This document shows, in pieces, positions 38,249-50,096 of a stretch of 64,000 nucleotides of DNA. The DNA is taken from positions 2,501 to 66,500 of the forward strand of contig NZ_CYSA01000007.1 of NCBI RefSeq assembly GCF_001458355.1, read 5' to 3'. The position numbers were made by a program, and so were the translations under genes. This stretch comes from Thalassovita gelatinovora. Its GTDB lineage: Bacteria; Pseudomonadota; Alphaproteobacteria; Rhodobacterales; Rhodobacteraceae. The notes beneath the pieces were generated by a model. It did no database searches. It was not told the DNA's origin and saw only the letters and a program-made list of their open reading frames with translations. Position 1 is the first letter of the stretch. Every line of letters starts with the position of its first letter.

Positions 38249-40930
38249 TCAGCAAACCGGCTCCAACTCGTAAATCCGGGGCGTATCGATCTGCTTCAGT
38301 GAACGCACCCTGCGACCACTGAGCAGCGGGCAAACCCGCGACCCATAGATGCCCTCGACCGCGACATCACCATTCAGTGCCGGAATCAGCTGCGGCGCTG
38401 CGATTGCGATTTCAATCTGCGCCTGCGGTCCCAGCGCCGCCAGTGCCAACGGGCCGGGCCACATGCTTTCCGCCAGCATTCCATCGGTCCAAAGCAGCGC
38501 GTGCCGCGGCAACAACAAGTGGTGATACTCCACCGATTTCGTGCCATGCGCCACGCGGAAACGCGGGTCGCGATGTTCGGCCAAATGGATCGCCCGGACC
38601 AGTCTCAGCCCGTTTTTGGTTTGGACTGGAACCGCATGCTGCGGCGACAAACGCAATTCACGATCATTGCCCAGCGCACCGCGCCGGAACACGACCGGGC
38701 GCAGACGCGGGTGCGCGTCAAGAATATCCCGGTCCAGATGTCGCCCACCGGCCCAAAGGATTGGTTGCACCGATCCGTCGGCACAGCTGACCAAATCGCC
38801 CGCTTGCAACGTTTCGACCGGCACCTCACCCCGTGGGGTAGCAATTAGGCTGCCCTTGACGAAACAAGGGACACCCATCGCATAAAGTTGCCCGGGGTTG
38901 GAAACAGATGCCGGGCTGACGCCAGACAGCAGCATGGATTCGCCATTCGGGAAGGTCAGAACCGCATTGCCCGACCCATCGTCACTGACCACCACATCCC
39001 AGGTTTCGACCGCTTCGCCATCGGCATCGATCAGTGACGAAACATCAAGCTGGTCGTTGGTGAACCCATCGCGATCGTCGTCCCCCATATTGAAATCCGA
39101 AATGGTGTCGTCACCGGAATCGTTCGTCGCCACGAAAGTGTCGTATCCAGTGCCACCCGACAGCACGTCATTGCCAGCATCACCCGATAGGGTGTCATTG
39201 CCGTCGCCACCCGACAGCGTATCATTGCCGTCGCCACCCGACAGCGTATCATGGCCGGTGCCGCCAGACAGAGCATCATCCCCGCCATCCCCTGACAGCA
39301 CATCGTTGCCGTCGCCACCCGACAGCGCATCATTACCGTCGCCGCCAGACAGTGTATCATGGCCGGTGCCGCCAGACAGAACATCATTCCCGCCATCCCC
39401 TGACAGCACATCGTTGCCGTCGTCACCCGAAAGCGTATCATTACCGTCGCCACCAGACAGCGTGTCTTGGCCAGTACCACCAGACAGTACATCGTTGCCT
39501 GCGTCTCCCGACAGCACATCATCCCCATCGCCGCCTGACAGTGTATCGTCGCCAGATCCGGCATAGATCGTGTCATCCCCGGCCCCGCCATCGATCTGAT
39601 CGTCATCGGTCATGCCGGTGGCGAATTCGGCATCCCAGCGGCTTTGGGCGAGGTAATCTATCGAATTGCGATCGTTGCCCGAGATCAGCGAATTCAGCGT
39701 AATGGAATCGATTGGTCCGGCTTCCAACGCGGCCTGATCACTGTTGTAATTGTATTCCGGAGCCATAAACAGATCGCCATCAACGGTCTGGAAAACGACA
39801 GCGCTGATCGTGGCGCTGGACCCGTCTGCATAAGTAAGCGTGGCATCGTAGACCAGAACCGAGTCGATGTAGGTCTGCTCGCCATTAATGAAAATGGCAT
39901 CCGCTGAACCGCTGGTGCTGTCGGTGGCAACTGCCCGGACACCATGCACGTTCGCCGACGCGTTGGGGGCATCCATATCGGCGAAATGATCCGTGAGTGG
40001 ATCGCTGTCTGAACCATAAGTGCCAAGTGCCGAATTAGCGTTTTCGGCACCATAGTTCGAATTGTCGCGGCTTTGATATTCGTCGGGGTCCAGGTCCCGG
40101 GCCGTGCCGAGGCTGATCACGGTGTAAGACGTGCTCTGTCCCCCGCTACCACCTGTGGTGGCGGCACCGCCACCGCCCATGATCAGATCGTTGCCGTCGC
40201 CACCATCGATGGAGTCATCGCCACCGCCACCTTGGATCGTATCGTCCTCGGCGCCGCCGCTGAGAATGTCATCGCCGTCACCACCTTCGATCGAATCGGT
40301 ACCGGCACCACCTTCTATGGAATCGTCGCCTTTCCCGGCATCAATCGAGTCATTGCCGGAACCGCCATCTACGGTATCGTCCCCATCATTTGCGGTGATG
40401 GTGTCGTGCCTATCTCCGCCAACCAACGATTCGTCGCCTTCGCTGGCATACATTTCATTGGCCGCACCGGATTCGTATGTTTGGGAATCAATCTCGCGAA
40501 AGCTCGGCTCGGTGCCCGGGCCGACATCCTCGATAGACGTGACTTCATAGTGAACGCCGGGCGTTATGTGGCCATCGACGACATAGCCCTGAAAAACACC
40601 GTTAATTTCTATCGAATAAACATTGATATTGGTGCCATCAGGTGCGCTGAGGGTGATCCGATCTTCTGCATAACCTTGTCCGCGCCCGGTGAGGGTTCCG
40701 TTTTCATCGTAGACGGCCAGATACTGATTGGTGTCATCCCCCGTTTCATCGGAAGTCTGATCCCCATTGAGGAGAGCATCCTCGGAATCGTAGAAATCAA
40801 AGGTGATTGCATTCGCGGAACTGCTCCAGCCTGAATCCAACACCAGACTGTCACCGGTCGTAAAGGAACCACTTCCATCCGTATTTGCCAGCTGATCGGG
40901 GCTGAAACCTGCAAAAGAAATCTGTGCCAT
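38249..40930 (-). CDS. RTX-type calcium-binding protein with C-terminal Hint domain, probable type I secretion cargo
   Basis: An 893-residue acidic protein without a classical signal. In order: an unrecognised N-terminal domain (1-164), a first RTX block of GGxGxDx(L/I) nonapeptides (165-255), a domain I cannot place (265-440), a larger RTX block of about 16 units (443-600, DNA 39131-39604), a linker (600-688), and a Hint_2 domain starting at C689 ([24 protein letters not shown], later LSPQHAV). RTX blocks fold on calcium outside the cell; Hint domains descend from self-cleaving proteins, and cleavage before C689 is possible. The prsDE-like exporter at 23.9-26.9 kb is the natural partner. GAGG precedes the ATG, just after a hairpin. 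Confidence 0.92.
39131..39604 (-). repeat. tandem 27-bp coding repeats of the second RTX block
   Basis: About 17 units of 27 bp encode GGxGxD-type nonapeptides. Neighbouring units are close to identical in DNA: the codons for [10 protein letters not shown] and its variants return in the same spelling many times, and longer multi-unit blocks are repeated too. This marks recent duplication or gene conversion and makes the region prone to length change and to assembly error. Confidence 0.9.
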
Positions 40931-43773: not shown

Positions 43774-43802
43774 AAAGGGCGGGCCTTGGCCCGCCCTTTA
43801 TC
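43774..43802. terminator. bidirectional terminator between the MDR and hsp20 genes
   Basis: A perfect 11-bp stem, AAAGGGCGGGC (43774-43784) and GCCCGCCCTTT (43789-43799), with a 4-nt loop. It sits between convergent genes; the flanking A and T runs are short. Confidence 0.88.
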
Positions 43803-43818: not shown

Positions 43819-44286
43819 TCAGTTGACGGCTTTGGCGTCCACGATATCCTTTTCGACCGTTTGACCGCTGGCGATTTCAACCCGGCGCGGTTTCAGCGTT
43901 TCGGGCATTTCCCGGACCAGATCGATATGCAGCATGCCATCGGCATGGGTTGCCCCGGTCACGCGCACATGATCAGCCAGTGTGAAGCGGCGCTCAAAGG
44001 CACGGGTTGCAATACCGCGATGCAGATAGACATGCTCCTTGTCTTCCTCGGCTTTGCGGGCGGCGACGATCAGGGCACTTTCCTTCACTTCGACCGATAG
44101 GTCGACGTCCGAAAACCCTGCCACCGCGATCGAAATACGGTAAGCGTTTTCGTCAATCTTTTCTATGTTATAGGGGGGATAACTTGGCTGTGGGGCTTCG
44201 TTGGTAAAAACGCGGTCCATCATGTCGGCGATCTGGTCGAAACCGACGCTGGCGCGATAAAGCGGTGCAAAATCAAAACTACGCAT
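43819..44286 (-). CDS. Hsp20 family small heat-shock chaperone (IbpA-like)
   Basis: A 155-residue alpha-crystallin-type chaperone that holds unfolding proteins in the cytoplasm. It begins MRSFDFAPLYRASVGFDQIADMMD, as IbpA-like proteins do, continues with YPPYNIEKIDENAYRISIAVAGF, and carries YLHRGIATRAFERRFTLADHVRV and DLVREMPETLKPRRVEI. GGAGGA lies seven bases before ATG 44286; the longer frame is not supported. No heat-shock hairpin or sigma-32 promoter was identified with confidence. Confidence 0.94.
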   Translation of the reverse strand: MRSFDFAPLYRASVGFDQIADMMDRVFTNEAPQPSYPPYNIEKIDENAYRISIAVAGFSDVDLSVEVKESALIVAARKAEEDKEHVYLHRGIATRAFERRFTLADHVRVTGATHADGMLHIDLVREMPETLKPRRVEIASGQTVEKDIVDAKAVN

Positions 44287-44403
44287 AGGGCGATCCTCCA
44301 TCTGAGCGATACCTGATTGGTGCCTTCCAACTGGACAGGCAAATTCAGCGGGACCCAAGGTGGCGCCCCGATAAAGATCATGTGGGGGGTTTAAATGAGC
44401 GTT

Positions 44404-45219
44404 TCAACCCCCGCCGGGACGGACAAAACGCGCCCCTGTGCTGTTGCGCCCGGCCCCGGGCGCCAACCGCTTGATGCGCCGGTCAGGGGCTGTGACCGGG
44501 TTGCGCCGCAATTGCGCCTTTAGTTCTGCAATCCGCTGCGGCAGCACCATGCCGAACCCCACCTTTTTGCCGTCGAAGTTCCCGCCAGCCGACACCAGCG
44601 ACAGGATACGCCCACGCCCGCCCACCCGGACGAAAACCGGTGCGCCGGACGATCCAAAGGTCACGTTGCAATCAAAGGCGATGACTTCGTTTCTTTCGGC
44701 CAGCAGCGTACATTTGCGCTGCCGCGACAGGGCTTCGGCCCGATTTACCCCATAGGACGCCACCGAAATCTGATTACCGGCATTCTGACCGGAATGAATT
44801 ACAAATGGATCGGCATCCCGGCTGGTAATCGGTTCGGACAACCGGATCAGCGCGACATCATAGCGAATGTTTTCAACACTCGGCGGTTGCTCCGGATCAT
44901 AATCCGGATGCGCTGCGATCTGTAATCCGCGTCGTTCAGCAATCGCCACCCCGTCGCGCAATCCGGCCCGGAACATGATCTTGTCCGCAGGGCGCAAATC
45001 CCTGATATTTCCGTCATAAACGCAATGCGCCGCAGTCAGCACCAGATCGGGCGCGATCAGGGTACCGGTGCAAAACCCCCTGCCATCCAGATCCAGACGA
45101 CCGACCGCTTCCCATCCCAGCAAGTCTTCGCGATCCGTCAACCGCCGCAGCCCATCCGCTGTGGCAGGCAGCACAAGCACCAGAATGATCAGAATCGCTA
45201 TGATGCCGGATCGTTTCAT
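44404..45219 (-). CDS. secreted trypsin-like serine protease (S1 family), copy A
   Basis: A 271-residue protease with an N-terminal signal (IIAILIILVLVLPATA). The S1 triad can be read: H65 in LTAAHC, D121 in DVALIRL, and S191 in GSSGAP, a variant of the usual GDSGGP. It should act in the periplasm or outside. Its ATG overlaps the stop of copy B by 4 bp (45216-45219). Both copies are exactly 271 residues and share the GWE-VGRLDL-GRGFCTG-LIAPDLVLTAAHC block and a similar C-terminal tail, so they arose by tandem duplication. Confidence 0.92.
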   Translation of the reverse strand: MKRSGIIAILIILVLVLPATADGLRRLTDREDLLGWEAVGRLDLDGRGFCTGTLIAPDLVLTAAHCVYDGNIRDLRPADKIMFRAGLRDGVAIAERRGLQIAAHPDYDPEQPPSVENIRYDVALIRLSEPITSRDADPFVIHSGQNAGNQISVASYGVNRAEALSRQRKCTLLAERNEVIAFDCNVTFGSSGAPVFVRVGGRGRILSLVSAGGNFDGKKVGFGMVLPQRIAELKAQLRRNPVTAPDRRIKRLAPGAGRNSTGARFVRPGGG

Positions 45220-46031
45220 TGTTTAAGGAATTTGGCACCCGACGCATTTCGCGCCGCGCCCACACGCACGCGCCGCGCTTGGGATAAAGTGGATTTCAAT
45301 ACCCCAACGCCCGCAGCAAGCTGGTTGCGCAGCAGGTCGACGGAGCCGTCTAATTGACTGCCCAGCGCCACCCGTTCGCCATCGACATGGGCCTTGGCCG
45401 AAATAACCGACACGATCTGCGTACGGCCTCCGTCAAAACTGAACACCGGCGATCCCGACGCGCCGAAATCGACATCGCAAGACATGACCAAAATCCCTTG
45501 CTGTCGCCCGGTCACCGAACAGATGTCCTGCATCGACGGGGCTTCGGCACGGTCGTGGGCATAAGACACAACGCCGACTTGGTCCCCAGCACCCACGGCG
45601 CGTGCCACATCGAACGGGATCACGCTGCCGTTTCGGATCGGTTGCGCCAGTTCCAACAACGCCAGATCATTGCGCACCCGGTCGGCCGAAACCGGACCGT
45701 CAAAATGATAGGACGGATGCACCACCGCGCGCCGGACCCAACGATAGGCTTCGGCCCGGCCATTGCGCATCCCAGCCTGAAATTCGATCCGGCTATAATC
45801 AACCTTTTCGCCGGTTTCGCGGTCAAACAGGCAATGCGCCGCAGTCAGCACCAGATCAGGCGCAATCAGCGCCCCAGTGCAAAACCCACGACCGGCCAGA
45901 TCAAGCCGCCCAACCCCTTCCCAGCCTTTTCCGTCTTCTCCAGTATCCAGTCGCCGCAAAGCACTGTTTTCTGATATCGCACTTGTAGCGCTCAGGGTCA
46001 GGCACAGAAAAATCAAAACTCGCCGCAGCAT
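45216..46031 (-). CDS. secreted trypsin-like serine protease (S1 family), copy B
   Basis: A 271-residue paralogue of the gene after it, with a signal peptide (VLIFLCLTLSATSAIS). The triad is H66 in LTAAHC, D122 in NDLALLEL, and S192 in GASGSP. Outside the catalytic blocks the two copies have drifted well apart, so the duplication is old and the substrates may differ. It is the first gene of the two-gene unit. The Asp usually found before the catalytic Ser (GDSGG) is Ala here and Ser in copy A. Confidence 0.92.
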   Translation of the reverse strand: MLRRVLIFLCLTLSATSAISENSALRRLDTGEDGKGWEGVGRLDLAGRGFCTGALIAPDLVLTAAHCLFDRETGEKVDYSRIEFQAGMRNGRAEAYRWVRRAVVHPSYHFDGPVSADRVRNDLALLELAQPIRNGSVIPFDVARAVGAGDQVGVVSYAHDRAEAPSMQDICSVTGRQQGILVMSCDVDFGASGSPVFSFDGGRTQIVSVISAKAHVDGERVALGSQLDGSVDLLRNQLAAGVGVLKSTLSQARRVRVGAARNASGAKFLKQ

Positions 46032-46170: not shown

Positions 46171-47460
46171 TCAGATATCTTTCAGCGCCGGAGGCTGCGG
46201 TCCTCCGGTGGCCCAGTCCAGCAATTCAACCGTATGCACCACCGGCACGTCGCTGCCCGATCCGATCTGCATCATGCAGCCGATATTGCCTGCGGCGATG
46301 ATATCGGGATTCTTGGCCTGCAAGGTGCGCAGCTTGCGATCCTTCAACTGCTTGGAAATTTCCGGCTGCATCAGGTTGTAGGTCCCCGCCGACCCACAGC
46401 ACAAATGACTATCAGCTGGTTCCACCACCTTGAACCCGGACCTTTTCAGCAGATCCTTGGGAAAGGTCTTGATCTTCTGCCCATGCTGCAACGAACAGGC
46501 GGCGTGGTAGGCCACGGTCAGCCCCTTATCCGCCCCTTCCGGCAGATCCAGTTGCATCAGAACTTCGGACACGTCCATTGCAATCGCCGCCACCCGTGCG
46601 GCCTGTTCGGCCAAGGGATCGTTGCGGAACATGTGACCGTAATCCTTCACCGTGGTGCCGCAGCCTGAGGTATTGATGACAATGGCGTCCAACCCATCGC
46701 CGTCCATTTCGGCCACCCAGGCGCGGATATTTTTGGCCGCCGAGGCATGGCTTTCACCGGTTTTCCCCATGTGATGGGTCAGCGCCCCACAACAGCCCGC
46801 CCCTTCGGCAATCACCACCTCGCAGCCCAGCCGTTTCAGTAGCCGGATAGTGGCATCGTTGATATCGGTATTCAGCGCCTTTTGCGCGCAACCCGTCATC
46901 AGCGCCACCCGCTTACGGCGTGGGATTTCGGCAGCAAAGCTTTGTGGATCGTCATTGCGGCTGACCGGTGGGATTCGTTTCGGCGCCATTTCCAACATTG
47001 CTTTCAGCCGCGCATCCGGCATCAAAAACGCGAAAGGCCGGCCGATCTTCGCCCCGAGAAGCGCCAACCGAAACCGGCTGGGATAGGGCAAGATACGCGC
47101 CAGTATCCAACGCAGGGCACGGTCGCTGAAGGGACGTTTGTATTTCTGTTCGATATAGTCGCGCGCGTGATCGACCAGATGCATGTAATGCACCCCCGAC
47201 GGGCATGTCGTCATACAGGCCAGACAACTGAGGCAGCGGTCGATATGCATGACCGTCTTGGCATCCGGCACGCGTTCGTTTTCCAACATATCCTTAATCT
47301 GGTAGATTCGCCCACGCGGGCTGTCCAATTCGTCGCCCAGCACCTGATAGGTCGGACAGGTCGCGGTGCAAAACCCGCAATGCACACAAGCGCGCAAGAT
47401 TTCATTGGCCCGTTCGATACCGGGGTCCCGCAATTGATCTTCGGTGAAATTGGTCTGCAT
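46171..47460 (-). CDS. glcF: glycolate oxidase iron-sulfur subunit
   Basis: A 429-residue electron-transfer subunit of membrane-linked glycolate oxidase. Two 4Fe-4S motifs are seen near the N-terminus: CVHCGFCTATCP and CLSCLACMTTCP. Two CCG-type cysteine-rich domains follow (AEGAGCCGALTHHMG and DSHLCCGSAGTYN). GlcF passes electrons from the GlcDE flavin units to the quinone pool. It starts 3 bp after glcE, last in glcDEF. Confidence 0.96.
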   Translation of the reverse strand: MQTNFTEDQLRDPGIERANEILRACVHCGFCTATCPTYQVLGDELDSPRGRIYQIKDMLENERVPDAKTVMHIDRCLSCLACMTTCPSGVHYMHLVDHARDYIEQKYKRPFSDRALRWILARILPYPSRFRLALLGAKIGRPFAFLMPDARLKAMLEMAPKRIPPVSRNDDPQSFAAEIPRRKRVALMTGCAQKALNTDINDATIRLLKRLGCEVVIAEGAGCCGALTHHMGKTGESHASAAKNIRAWVAEMDGDGLDAIVINTSGCGTTVKDYGHMFRNDPLAEQAARVAAIAMDVSEVLMQLDLPEGADKGLTVAYHAACSLQHGQKIKTFPKDLLKRSGFKVVEPADSHLCCGSAGTYNLMQPEISKQLKDRKLRTLQAKNPDIIAAGNIGCMMQIGSGSDVPVVHTVELLDWATGGPQPPALKDI

Positions 47461-47463
47461 CTC

Positions 47464-48594
47464 TTATCCCATCAGTCCCGGATTGAGAATCCCACGCGGA
47501 TCGAATTTCGCCCGCACTCCCCGGCTCAGCGCTGCTACCGGTGCCGGTTCAGGTTGAAAGGCCGGAATTGTCGCACGGGTCGCTTCGTCGGCCCGGACCA
47601 GCGTCGCATGTCCGCCGATCCCTGCCATTGCGGGGCGAATATCGCGCCCCGGTGCGACCAGCGCCCAGATCAACCCGCCGCCCCAGTCATAAAGCATTTG
47701 CTCTGCCTGCAACGCCGCGCCGACGCGCGGACCATCAGAAGGCTTTACCGAAATGCGCCAGACATCACCGGGCTGATCGGCAAAGGCTTCAACATCGCGC
47801 AGCCACTGCCAATCCGCCGCGACCTTCTCCGCCTGCGTTTCCACTGCGATCTCGCCAAAGATCGACAGGCGTGACTTCAACTGTTCTGCCCGGTAGGTCA
47901 CCGATTTCTCGAACCCCTCAATCCGGATCATGGTGATCGGTACTCCGCCCTGACCTTTCGGCATATGCGCCGCCCCGGTCACGTCAAAGGGCGATCCCAA
48001 CGCCGCCGCCATCGCTTCGACAGCACGCGCATCACTCAACCCGCCAATCTGGATCACCGCGCTGGTTTCCGGCTTGGGCAGCACCTTGAAACTGACCTCG
48101 CTCAACACGCCCAGAGTCCCGAAAGACCCAGCCATCAGTTTGACCAGATCATAGCCGGTGACGTTCTTCATCACTCGGCCCCCATTTTTCAACACCCGGC
48201 CCATGCCATCGACAAAACGCACCCCCAGCATGAAATCGCGGCAGGCTCCGACTTGTATACGCCGCGATCCCGATACGTTCGCCGCCGCCATGCCGCCAAC
48301 CGTCGGTGTGCCCGTAGTCCCCAGCAGAGCGCGATGATCCATCGGCTCAAACGGCAACCTCTGGCCCTCTGCGTCCAGTGCCGCCTCGACCTCGGAAAGC
48401 GGTGTACCCGCCCCGGCCACCAGCGTCAGCGCCCCGGGTTCATAAAGATGGATTCCGCGCATCCCTCCGGTTTCCAGAACTGCGCCTTCCACCGGGCCTC
48501 CGATAGGCCGGGTGCCGCCGCCATGAACGCGTAACGGCCCCGTAGCGCTTGCAATCATTTCTGCCAGTTCGGCCTCTGTCTGTGGTGTCATCAT
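47464..48594 (-). CDS. glcE: glycolate oxidase FAD-binding subunit
   Basis: A 376-residue FAD-binding subunit. It shows the PCMH-type fold with LRVHGGGTRPIGG, LTLVAGAGTPLSEVEAAL, TGTPTVGGMAAANVSGSRRIQVGACRDFMLGV and VMKNVTGYDLVKLMAGSFGTLGV. The length matches GlcE, a shortened relative of GlcD. Two ATG codons in a row (48594 and 48591) are possible; the only ribosome site is the AGAAGAAG contributed by the intergenic repeat in front of it. Confidence 0.95.
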   Translation of the reverse strand: MMTPQTEAELAEMIASATGPLRVHGGGTRPIGGPVEGAVLETGGMRGIHLYEPGALTLVAGAGTPLSEVEAALDAEGQRLPFEPMDHRALLGTTGTPTVGGMAAANVSGSRRIQVGACRDFMLGVRFVDGMGRVLKNGGRVMKNVTGYDLVKLMAGSFGTLGVLSEVSFKVLPKPETSAVIQIGGLSDARAVEAMAAALGSPFDVTGAAHMPKGQGGVPITMIRIEGFEKSVTYRAEQLKSRLSIFGEIAVETQAEKVAADWQWLRDVEAFADQPGDVWRISVKPSDGPRVGAALQAEQMLYDWGGGLIWALVAPGRDIRPAMAGIGGHATLVRADEATRATIPAFQPEPAPVAALSRGVRAKFDPRGILNPGLMG

Positions 48595-48659
48595 CTTCTT
48601 CTGTTCAAAAATATCCTAGGGGGAATGCACACGTCGCGCGCAGGGGACAACGCCCCCTA
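48595..48659 (-). repeat. dispersed GC-hairpin intergenic repeat, copy 2
   Basis: On the minus strand the unit reads GGGGGCG then CGCCCCC-like arms (imperfect here), CCCCCTAGGATATTTTTG and AACAGAAGAAG, the same order as copy 1 at 16621-16690. It fills the glcD-glcE gap, and its tail supplies the ribosome site of glcE. Confidence 0.7.
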
Positions 48660-50096
48660 TTCGGCCGCAATCCTGCGCCTCTCGCTTGCCGCCAAAGGAA
48701 ACACTTTCGCCGGGTTCAGCAACCAGGCGGGATCGAACGCATCTTTCACCGCCATCTGGATATCCAGATCGTCAGGATCGAACTGATCCACCATTAGGTC
48801 GCGCTTTTCGATGCCGACCCCGTGTTCGCCGGTCAGGCACCCGCCCACTTCAACGCACAGTTTCAGGATATCCGCCCCGAACCGTTCGCACAGTTCCAGA
48901 TCGCCGGGTTTATTGGCATCAAACAGGATCAGCGGATGCATGTTGCCGTCCCCGGCATGAAACACATTACCGACACCCAGACCGTATTGCTTGCTCATCT
49001 CGCCGATCCGGCGCAGCACATAGGGCAACTGGTTCACCGGGATGGTACCGTCGAGACACATGTAATCGTTGATTTGCCCCATCGCGCCAAAGGCCGATTT
49101 TCGACCCAGCCAGATGCGAGCGCTTTCTTCCGCGCTGGTGCTTTCGCGCAGTTCGACCGGGTTGTGGCTGCGAGCAATCGCCAGAATCTTTTCCAACTGT
49201 TCTTCGATTTCGCCCTCGGATCCTTCGACCTCGACAATCAGCAAAGCTTCACAATCGGGATAGCCCGCCCCGGCAAAGGCTTCGGTAGCGCGGATGCAGG
49301 GGCGATCCATGAATTCGATTGCCACCGGCAACAGCCCCGCCTGAATGATTTCACTAACGCATTCACCCGCGACTTCATTGCTGTCAAAGCCCATCAGGAC
49401 AGGCCGTGCGCCTTCGGGTTTGTGCAGGATGCGCAGGGTGGCTTCAGTTACCACGCCAAGTTGGCCTTCGGATCCGCATATCACGCCCAACAAATCAATT
49501 CCACCGGCATCCAGATGCGCACCGCCCAGTTCGACCACCGCTCCATCCATCAAAACCATGGTCACGCCCATCAGGTTATTGGTGGTCACGCCGTATTTCA
49601 GGCAATGCGCCCCGCCTGAATTCATCGCCACATTGCCAGCGATTGCACAGGCCAACTGGGAGGACGGATCGGGAGCATAGAAGAAATCTTCTTCTTCCAC
49701 CGCCCCGGTCACGCTCAGATTGGTGCGCCCTGACTGTACCTTGATGAAACGGTTGTCGTAATCGGTCTCCAACACCTCGTTCATCCGTGACACGCCTAGG
49801 ATCACACAGTCGGCGGTGGGCAGCGCCCCCCCGGCAAGCGATGTACCCGATCCGCGTGGCACCACCGGAACGCCCAGTTCATGGCAGATGGACAATACCG
49901 CAGACACCTCATTAGTATTCGCGGGAAGCACAGCCACCAGCGGCGGACAGCGATACGCCGTCAGCGCGTCGCATTCATAAGCACGGGTTTCCGCCTCTTC
50001 ATGAATCACTGCGACGGCAGGCAGGACCTGTAACAGACGTTTTACCAATACCGGCTTCAACGCTAGTATTTTTGCATTGGGTTCGGGCATCTGCAT
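48657..50096 (-). CDS. glcD: glycolate oxidase catalytic FAD subunit
   Basis: A 479-residue flavoprotein that oxidises glycolate to glyoxylate. The FAD-binding segment VVPRGSGTSLAGGALPTADCVILGVSRMNE is clear, as are NVAMNSGGAHCLKYGVTTNNLMGV, VFHAGDGNMHPLILFDANKPGD and GGCLTGEHGVGIEKRDLM near the end, the usual GlcD/FAD-oxidase C signatures. AGGAGGT lies just before ATG 50096. First gene of glcDEF; no GlcC-type regulator is adjacent. The product glyoxylate can lead to glycerate, the substrate of the kinase at 1524-2792. Confidence 0.97.
   Translation of the reverse strand: MQMPEPNAKILALKPVLVKRLLQVLPAVAVIHEEAETRAYECDALTAYRCPPLVAVLPANTNEVSAVLSICHELGVPVVPRGSGTSLAGGALPTADCVILGVSRMNEVLETDYDNRFIKVQSGRTNLSVTGAVEEEDFFYAPDPSSQLACAIAGNVAMNSGGAHCLKYGVTTNNLMGVTMVLMDGAVVELGGAHLDAGGIDLLGVICGSEGQLGVVTEATLRILHKPEGARPVLMGFDSNEVAGECVSEIIQAGLLPVAIEFMDRPCIRATEAFAGAGYPDCEALLIVEVEGSEGEIEEQLEKILAIARSHNPVELRESTSAEESARIWLGRKSAFGAMGQINDYMCLDGTIPVNQLPYVLRRIGEMSKQYGLGVGNVFHAGDGNMHPLILFDANKPGDLELCERFGADILKLCVEVGGCLTGEHGVGIEKRDLMVDQFDPDDLDIQMAVKDAFDPAWLLNPAKVFPLAASERRRIAAE

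Follow-up and report, generated by a model that had tools for sequence, protein, structure and literature searches.

The activation mechanism of S1A serine proteases is not conserved in S1B, as stated in a passage of PMC3793935. In the staphylococcal Spl operon, sections of PMC7926377 describe several secreted S1 proteases with complementary specificities, which gain activity on removal of the signal peptide. Glutamyl endopeptidases of the V8/BIGEP type have His213 and Ser/Thr190 in the S1 site, and Lys216 matters for Glu cleavage by the staphylococcal toxins (passages of PMC5508998). Two trypsin-like proteins that serve one process, one of them catalytically lost, are known from magnetotactic bacteria as MamE and MamO (excerpts of PMC4794232). 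A further relative is E. coli YdgD (PDB 7uxg), a putative serine protease of 273 aa.

Here we compared with these systems a gene pair in the window, i.e. the whole 64,000 nt stretch of Thalassovita gelatinovora DNA that was analysed. Literature searches turned up no publication on the pair, and the matching passages of a paper on the Phaeobacter exoproteome (PMC3933643) did not mention it. As an earlier note on this DNA had described, two ORFs coding for 271-residue proteases were found at 45216..46031 and 44404..45219, with a 4 bp overlap. Both genes lie on the minus strand, which puts the gene at 45216-46031 first; it was named P2, and the downstream gene P1. Both products are S1 chymotrypsin-fold proteases with a signal-peptide-like N-terminus by eye, belonging to the P2-type and P1-type subfamilies, respectively. 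The stop/start overlap (ATGA, 45216..45219, minus) suggests translational coupling; beyond the window, 22 of 31 tandem loci likewise have a 4 bp overlap. The His-Asp-Ser triad reported earlier was likewise found in both proteins, as H66-D122-S192 in P2 and H65-D121-S191 in P1, as were the serine surroundings GASGSP (P2) and GSSGAP (P1). Computed from the residue numbers, the catalytic codons on the minus strand are 45834-45836 (His66), 45666-45668 (Asp122) and 45456..45458 (Ser192, equivalent to Ser195) for P2, and 45025-45027 (His65), 44857-44859 (Asp121) and 44647..44649 (Ser191, equivalent to Ser195) for P1.

At E≤0.001, Pfam assigned only Trypsin and Trypsin_2, with no PDZ domain after the protease domain (the HtrA/Deg hallmark), and an NCBIfam search gave nothing near the cut-offs. 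When P1 was used as the query against its own genome, only these two proteases were matched at E≤1. P1 and P2 are 43 % identical over query residues 9-267, and identity within a genome was 36-45 % across 30 tandem genomes, window included, so the low identity of the copies emphasized earlier was overstated. Their equal length holds in the window and is a matter of chance, this being the sole equal pair among the 30 (N-terminally trimmed rows); at the 31 other tandem loci, the two ORFs always differed in length.

In the window, the pair is preceded by glcF (46171-47460), glcE (47464-48594) and glcD (48657-50096), all minus (46171..50096), and followed by a gene for an Hsp20-type small heat-shock protein (43819..44286, minus); these names come from reading the sequences. 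The order glcD-glcE-glcF-P2-(P1)-Hsp20, with all genes pointing the same way, is found repeatedly in the family. The exceptions among 45 loci were off-locus copies (L067, L075-L078 and L091) and two loci with no glc genes seen (L101 and L105); in addition, L066 ends before Hsp20, and the glcF-P2 gap is wider in L085-L087 and L089. Matches to P1 were obtained in 34 of 61 genomes of relatives, and likewise for P2 (E≤1e-8). Of the 37 family genomes in this survey, own genome included, eight had a close-set pair (own, G010, G012, G015, G018, G027, G028 and G033) and four had no match. In a larger sample of 149 family genomes, 133 gave matches at E≤1e-20 and close-set pairs were present in at least 34, not every one of which is necessarily of the P2-P1 type. 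A P1 scan of named genomes, with a query that favours P1 carriers, gave 25 loci, 24 of them with a P2-type gene directly upstream. Plasmids contributed 10 records only, all distant matches (26-34 % identity). In Rhodobacteraceae, P2 is the constant enzyme of a glcDEF-P2-Hsp20 locus, and P1 is present or absent by lineage.

Within the genus, no P1-type match was found in the eight other genomes searched, including G005, which is 83 % complete, and a further P2-like copy was found elsewhere in G002, G003, G004 and G008. The earlier note had asked for a survey of single versus paired copies and regarded an inactive copy missing in most relatives as telling against its reading; P1 was indeed missing from all eight other genus genomes, and as to inactivity its triad is intact by sequence. 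Two unusual arrangements were also seen. An uncultured Rhodobacteraceae MAG (L091:4974-5828) has a P1-type protease that keeps its tail, with no P2, glc or Hsp20 found beside it, and G012 carries a second, divergent kind of close-set pair (L067:5075-6649), with 32-43 % identity to the window proteins, no A[KR]F tail and no glcF match nearby.

An RpoH-type promoter before Hsp20 was considered and rejected, as a consensus for such promoters matched four of 39 loci, the window not among them, and none before P2; sigma-70 and terminator scans were near shuffle level (4 versus 3.0 and 8 versus 7.2, respectively). A ROSE_2-like RNA thermosensor match lies directly before Hsp20 (window 44280-44352, minus; 23.7 bits, E 0.052, below the gathering score of 65), and none of 11 relatives' loci reached gathering. 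The leader RNA folded no better than shuffles (z -0.74); the leader pattern GCCTGTCC..GGA.GGC..ATCGCTCA..GAGGAT was conserved across 37 aligned leaders, window included. Elsewhere in the window, a near-perfect inverted repeat between two convergent genes (43774-43799) is probably a bidirectional terminator, with a weak Rfam STnc320 match on both strands, and 38249-40930 (minus) encodes an 893 aa protein in which inspection by eye shows many glycine/aspartate-rich repeats of calcium-binding type and a Hint-like C-terminal region.

To define the family, 151 ORF matches were collapsed by identical C-termini to 91 rows, the window copies being merged, comprising 31 P1-type and 60 P2-type rows; the second protease of L066, cut by a contig end, was scored as P2-type in residue and tail counts, though the trees place it with the P1-type. 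The triad and Gly193 were present in all 91 rows (31/31 and 60/60), with the serine motif G[SATV]SG[AS][PA]. Position 194 held Ser, Ala, Thr or Val, and no row had Asp there (0/91), so that Asp194, the S1A zymogen hallmark that forms a salt bridge with Ile16, was lacking throughout. As the residue is absent from all 91 rows and YdgD has GDSGSP, its loss is a feature of the Rhodobacteraceae family rather than a special change of these two copies, as had been thought; moreover, published S1B proteases activate by other routes, according to passages of PMC3793935, PMC5508998 and PMC7926377. In structural alignments, thrombin residues 17/18 aligned to residues 22/23 of P1 and 23/24 of P2, near the signal-peptide cleavage sites assigned by eye, suggesting that a separate zymogen cut would be unnecessary. 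By analogy with the Spl proteases, P1 and P2 are predicted to become active through signal-peptide removal, without the Ile16-Asp194 switch. Eight of the 31 P1-type rows (e.g. L085-L087, L089, L090, L093, L094 and L100) had GSSGSA instead of GSSGAP, and hence had lost Pro198.

Both proteins end in a short motif placed after a low-confidence linker, GAKFLKQ in P2 (45219..45239, minus), which differs from the tails of all but one of the eight genus relatives, and GARFVRPGGG in P1 (44407..44436, minus). A[KR]F occurred within the last 14 residues of all 31 P1-type and 50 of 60 P2-type rows, and in 67 of 70 rows at the glc-Hsp20 locus as compared with one of seven off locus, with 14 of the 91 rows unsorted in this last count. 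The linker is variable, and YdgD stops short of the tail, its last residue (273) being aligned to residue 240 of the P2 model and 239 of the P1 model. A genome-wide sorting tag was rejected: GA[KR]F[VI], a pattern that misses the P2 tail (Leu after Phe), gave 45 sites in the own genome versus 22 in a reversed control, and one of them was P1 itself. Among 16 others, picked by eye for codons giving GA[KR]F, no convincing tagged protein was found; the frame stopped within 10 codons in three of the 16, of which one has only about nine codons ahead of the motif, one reads as the C-terminus of a histidine kinase and one lies opposite an ORF that looks better. Of all features of the pair, the A[KR]F tail is the most interesting and the best lead.

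The origin of P1 was considered from trees, gene remnants and identities. The second genes of the glc-Hsp20 locus in the tree formed one clade of 32 rows (SH-aLRT 98 in the quick tree; UFBoot 89/SH-aLRT 99 in the careful tree, which left out the very long branch L067_5075; 100/97 for 29 rows), and the window P2 fell inside its own genus clade (nine rows, 100/98). The duplication is therefore old and, as far as this tree shows, happened once. G001, the nearest genome, has a P2-Hsp20 gap of 397 bp, versus 135-174 bp in six other genus members measured; this gap holds pieces that match a P1 start (residues 22-53) and a P1 end (residues 240-271) but no middle part, and it contains an in-frame stop and a frame change. 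P1 was thus present before the window and G001 split, and is dead in G001; remnant matches in G017 were rejected, as they arise from P2's own tail via 60 bp flanks. This remnant, together with the same position and order in tandem relatives, would agree with an old duplication in place, both copies being inherited directly by the window and P1 being lost several times independently in the genus. We regard this vertical history as doubtful, since it needs at least three losses on the genus P2 tree and leaves the following identity anomaly and the odd P2 tail unexplained. Over 435 genome pairs (with the collapsed P2 of L085 replaced by that of L086, and L066, L067 and L091 left out), P1-type identity exceeded P2-type identity in only 10; P1 minus P2 identity had a mean of -10.2 and a maximum of +0.8 in the 406 pairs without the window, while for the window it was +6.6 with L081 and +7.4 with L082. 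The P2 tail of the window was 50-55 % identical to those of L081-L084 versus 19-32 % to those of seven of eight genus members. Among the 60 P2-type rows, only L081-L084, the window and G001 end in Gln. This tail similarity alone is weak, because L055 and L018 also reached 50 % and five more rows 45 %, in a comparison spanning at most 22 residues. Identity of the P2 core to the window was 63-68 % for three genus members and 63-66 % for L081-L084, and the fork joining the window P1 with L081-L084 had UFBoot 95 and SH-aLRT 38. The identity anomaly is strong and the tail modest evidence that P1 and the 3' end of P2 were probably imported by homologous recombination from a Phaeobacter/Parasedimentitalea-like donor, although a slowed P1 rate could mimic part of the anomaly. 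A single import into the ancestor of the window and G001 would explain both anomaly and tail in one event.

As to function, we examined the S1 pocket, with positions 189, 190 and 216 set by alignment across a shortened loop and not from model coordinates. Counted back from Ser195 across this loop, the 189-equivalent is Asp in P2 and Asn in P1 of the window; P2-type rows had Asp in 33 and Glu in 11 of 60, and P1-type rows Asn in 21 and Asp in nine of 31. Position 191 was Thr in 30/31 P1-type and Asp in 45/60 P2-type rows, and the 216-equivalent was Gly in 23/31 and Lys in 47/60, respectively. Since the pocket differs between the types, different cleavage sites would be expected, and its split by subfamily predicts two active proteases with distinct specificity. 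The frequent Lys216, the role of this residue in the staphylococcal toxins and a glutamyl endopeptidase as the top VIA-align row for P2 would fit P2-type proteins being glutamyl endopeptidases in the style of the exfoliative toxins, in which Lys216 holds an acidic P1 residue, this property having been lost in the P1-type. We consider this unlikely: the 213-equivalent was Val, Ile or Leu and the 190-equivalent Val, Ala, Ile, Leu or Pro in all 91 rows, so His213 and Ser/Thr190 (each 0/91) are both missing and P2 was not filed as a glutamyl endopeptidase; moreover, Asp or Glu at 189 could attract Lys or Arg instead. It is more improbable still that P1 acts, or is on the way to acting, as a non-catalytic partner of P2, whether pseudoprotease or regulatory subunit, for which MamO beside MamE offers a precedent (excerpts of PMC4794232). 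P1-type proteins do diverge faster (mean identity 51 % versus 61 % for the P2-type over the same 435 pairs), some have also lost Pro198, and P1 is absent from the other genus genomes searched and decayed in the sister genome. Against this, a threonine substitution is described for MamO in the same source, along with Glu at position 193, whereas P1-type proteins keep the triad and Gly193 throughout, and their dN/dS was low in other species (0.06-0.19, and 0.02-0.10 for the P2-type; seven comparisons in five groups, three of them within one trio), consistent with purifying selection on both types there; the window P1 itself has no close intact orthologue. Given the intact triads and this selection, the pair most likely consists of two active proteases that differ in their S1 pockets. 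Control of the pair by the C-terminal tails, as pseudosubstrate or anchor in place of a zymogen cut, has an equally slim chance as a non-catalytic P1; the enrichment of A[KR]F at the locus and its position on a low-confidence linker past the end of YdgD speak for it, but the tail could equally be a sorting or stability signal. A long shot within this idea is that the tail replaces the zymogen switch by binding its own or the partner's active site, Lys/Arg facing the acidic pocket residue of the P2-type, and would keep the enzyme quiet until a target or the partner displaces it. The proposal that an old duplication was kept for two roles is thus only partly borne out: the age, the single clade of second genes, the intact triads and dN/dS below 0.2 in other species support it, but the genus genomes without P1, the remnant in the nearest one and the seeming import of the window P1 do not. 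Judged from sequence, the two-role idea is plausible.

Taken together, we somewhat favour two exported S1 proteases forming a coupled pair, in which P2 is constant and P1 is an old paralogue, probably imported. P2 and P1 would be translated as a coupled pair and exported by way of their putative signal peptides, would gain activity on removal of these without a zymogen switch, and would cleave different sites owing to their unlike S1 pockets; P1 may have entered this genome together with the P2 3' end by homologous recombination. One may guess at a role in the turnover of envelope proteins. The analysis defines two orthologous S1 subfamilies in Rhodobacteraceae, split by pocket residues, sets an Asp194-free family beside an Asp194-bearing relative and reveals a conserved C-terminal tail for which no established role was found; in addition, a gene seemingly enters a fixed chromosomal slot by recombination and then decays in a sister genome. 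P2/P1 is a genuine pair of genes from a known protease family, conserved and in part mobile, tidy but fairly ordinary, with one unexplained conserved tail.

With regard to known systems, AF2 models (mean pLDDT 87.7 for P2 and 89.1 for P1, with the signal peptide region and C-terminal linker of low confidence) showed the two-barrel S1 fold, with Z 23.6-26.5 to S1 structures among the matches listed. The first VIA-align row was the B. intermedius glutamyl endopeptidase 1p3c (Z 25.8 for P2 and 26.5 for P1; rmsd 2.5 and 203 aligned residues for both), and YdgD was third for P2 (Z 24.5, rmsd 2.8, 215 aligned) and second for P1 (Z 25.5, 2.6, 215), with many S1 enzymes within 1-3 Z units of the top. 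Foldseek ordered the matches to P2 differently, with MASP-3 first and YdgD ninth, so the nearest family is not singled out by fold alone. YdgD was the best sequence match among solved structures (profile E 1.1e-18, two matched stretches). It shares the fold and is close to P1 and P2 in full length, and all three have two Cys ahead of the active-site Ser, with equal Cys-to-Ser spacing; YdgD has one residue more between the two Cys, keeps Asp194, unlike P1 and P2, and stops where their extra tail starts. The glutamyl endopeptidases of Bacillus and staphylococci (1p3c, V8 and Esp; S1B) also share the fold, Esp and V8 being among the structural matches of P1, but they carry His213 and Ser/Thr190, which P1 and P2 do not, and P1 and P2 lack, by eye, their long propeptide. 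The Spl operon is Gram-positive and has six genes, and its likeness to P2/P1, set beside it by description, is one of arrangement only. MamE and MamO are of the HtrA type, and MamO lacks the catalytic Ser and Gly193, both of which P1 keeps. The P2/P1 pair is probably best placed among bacterial YdgD/glutamyl-endopeptidase-like S1 proteases.
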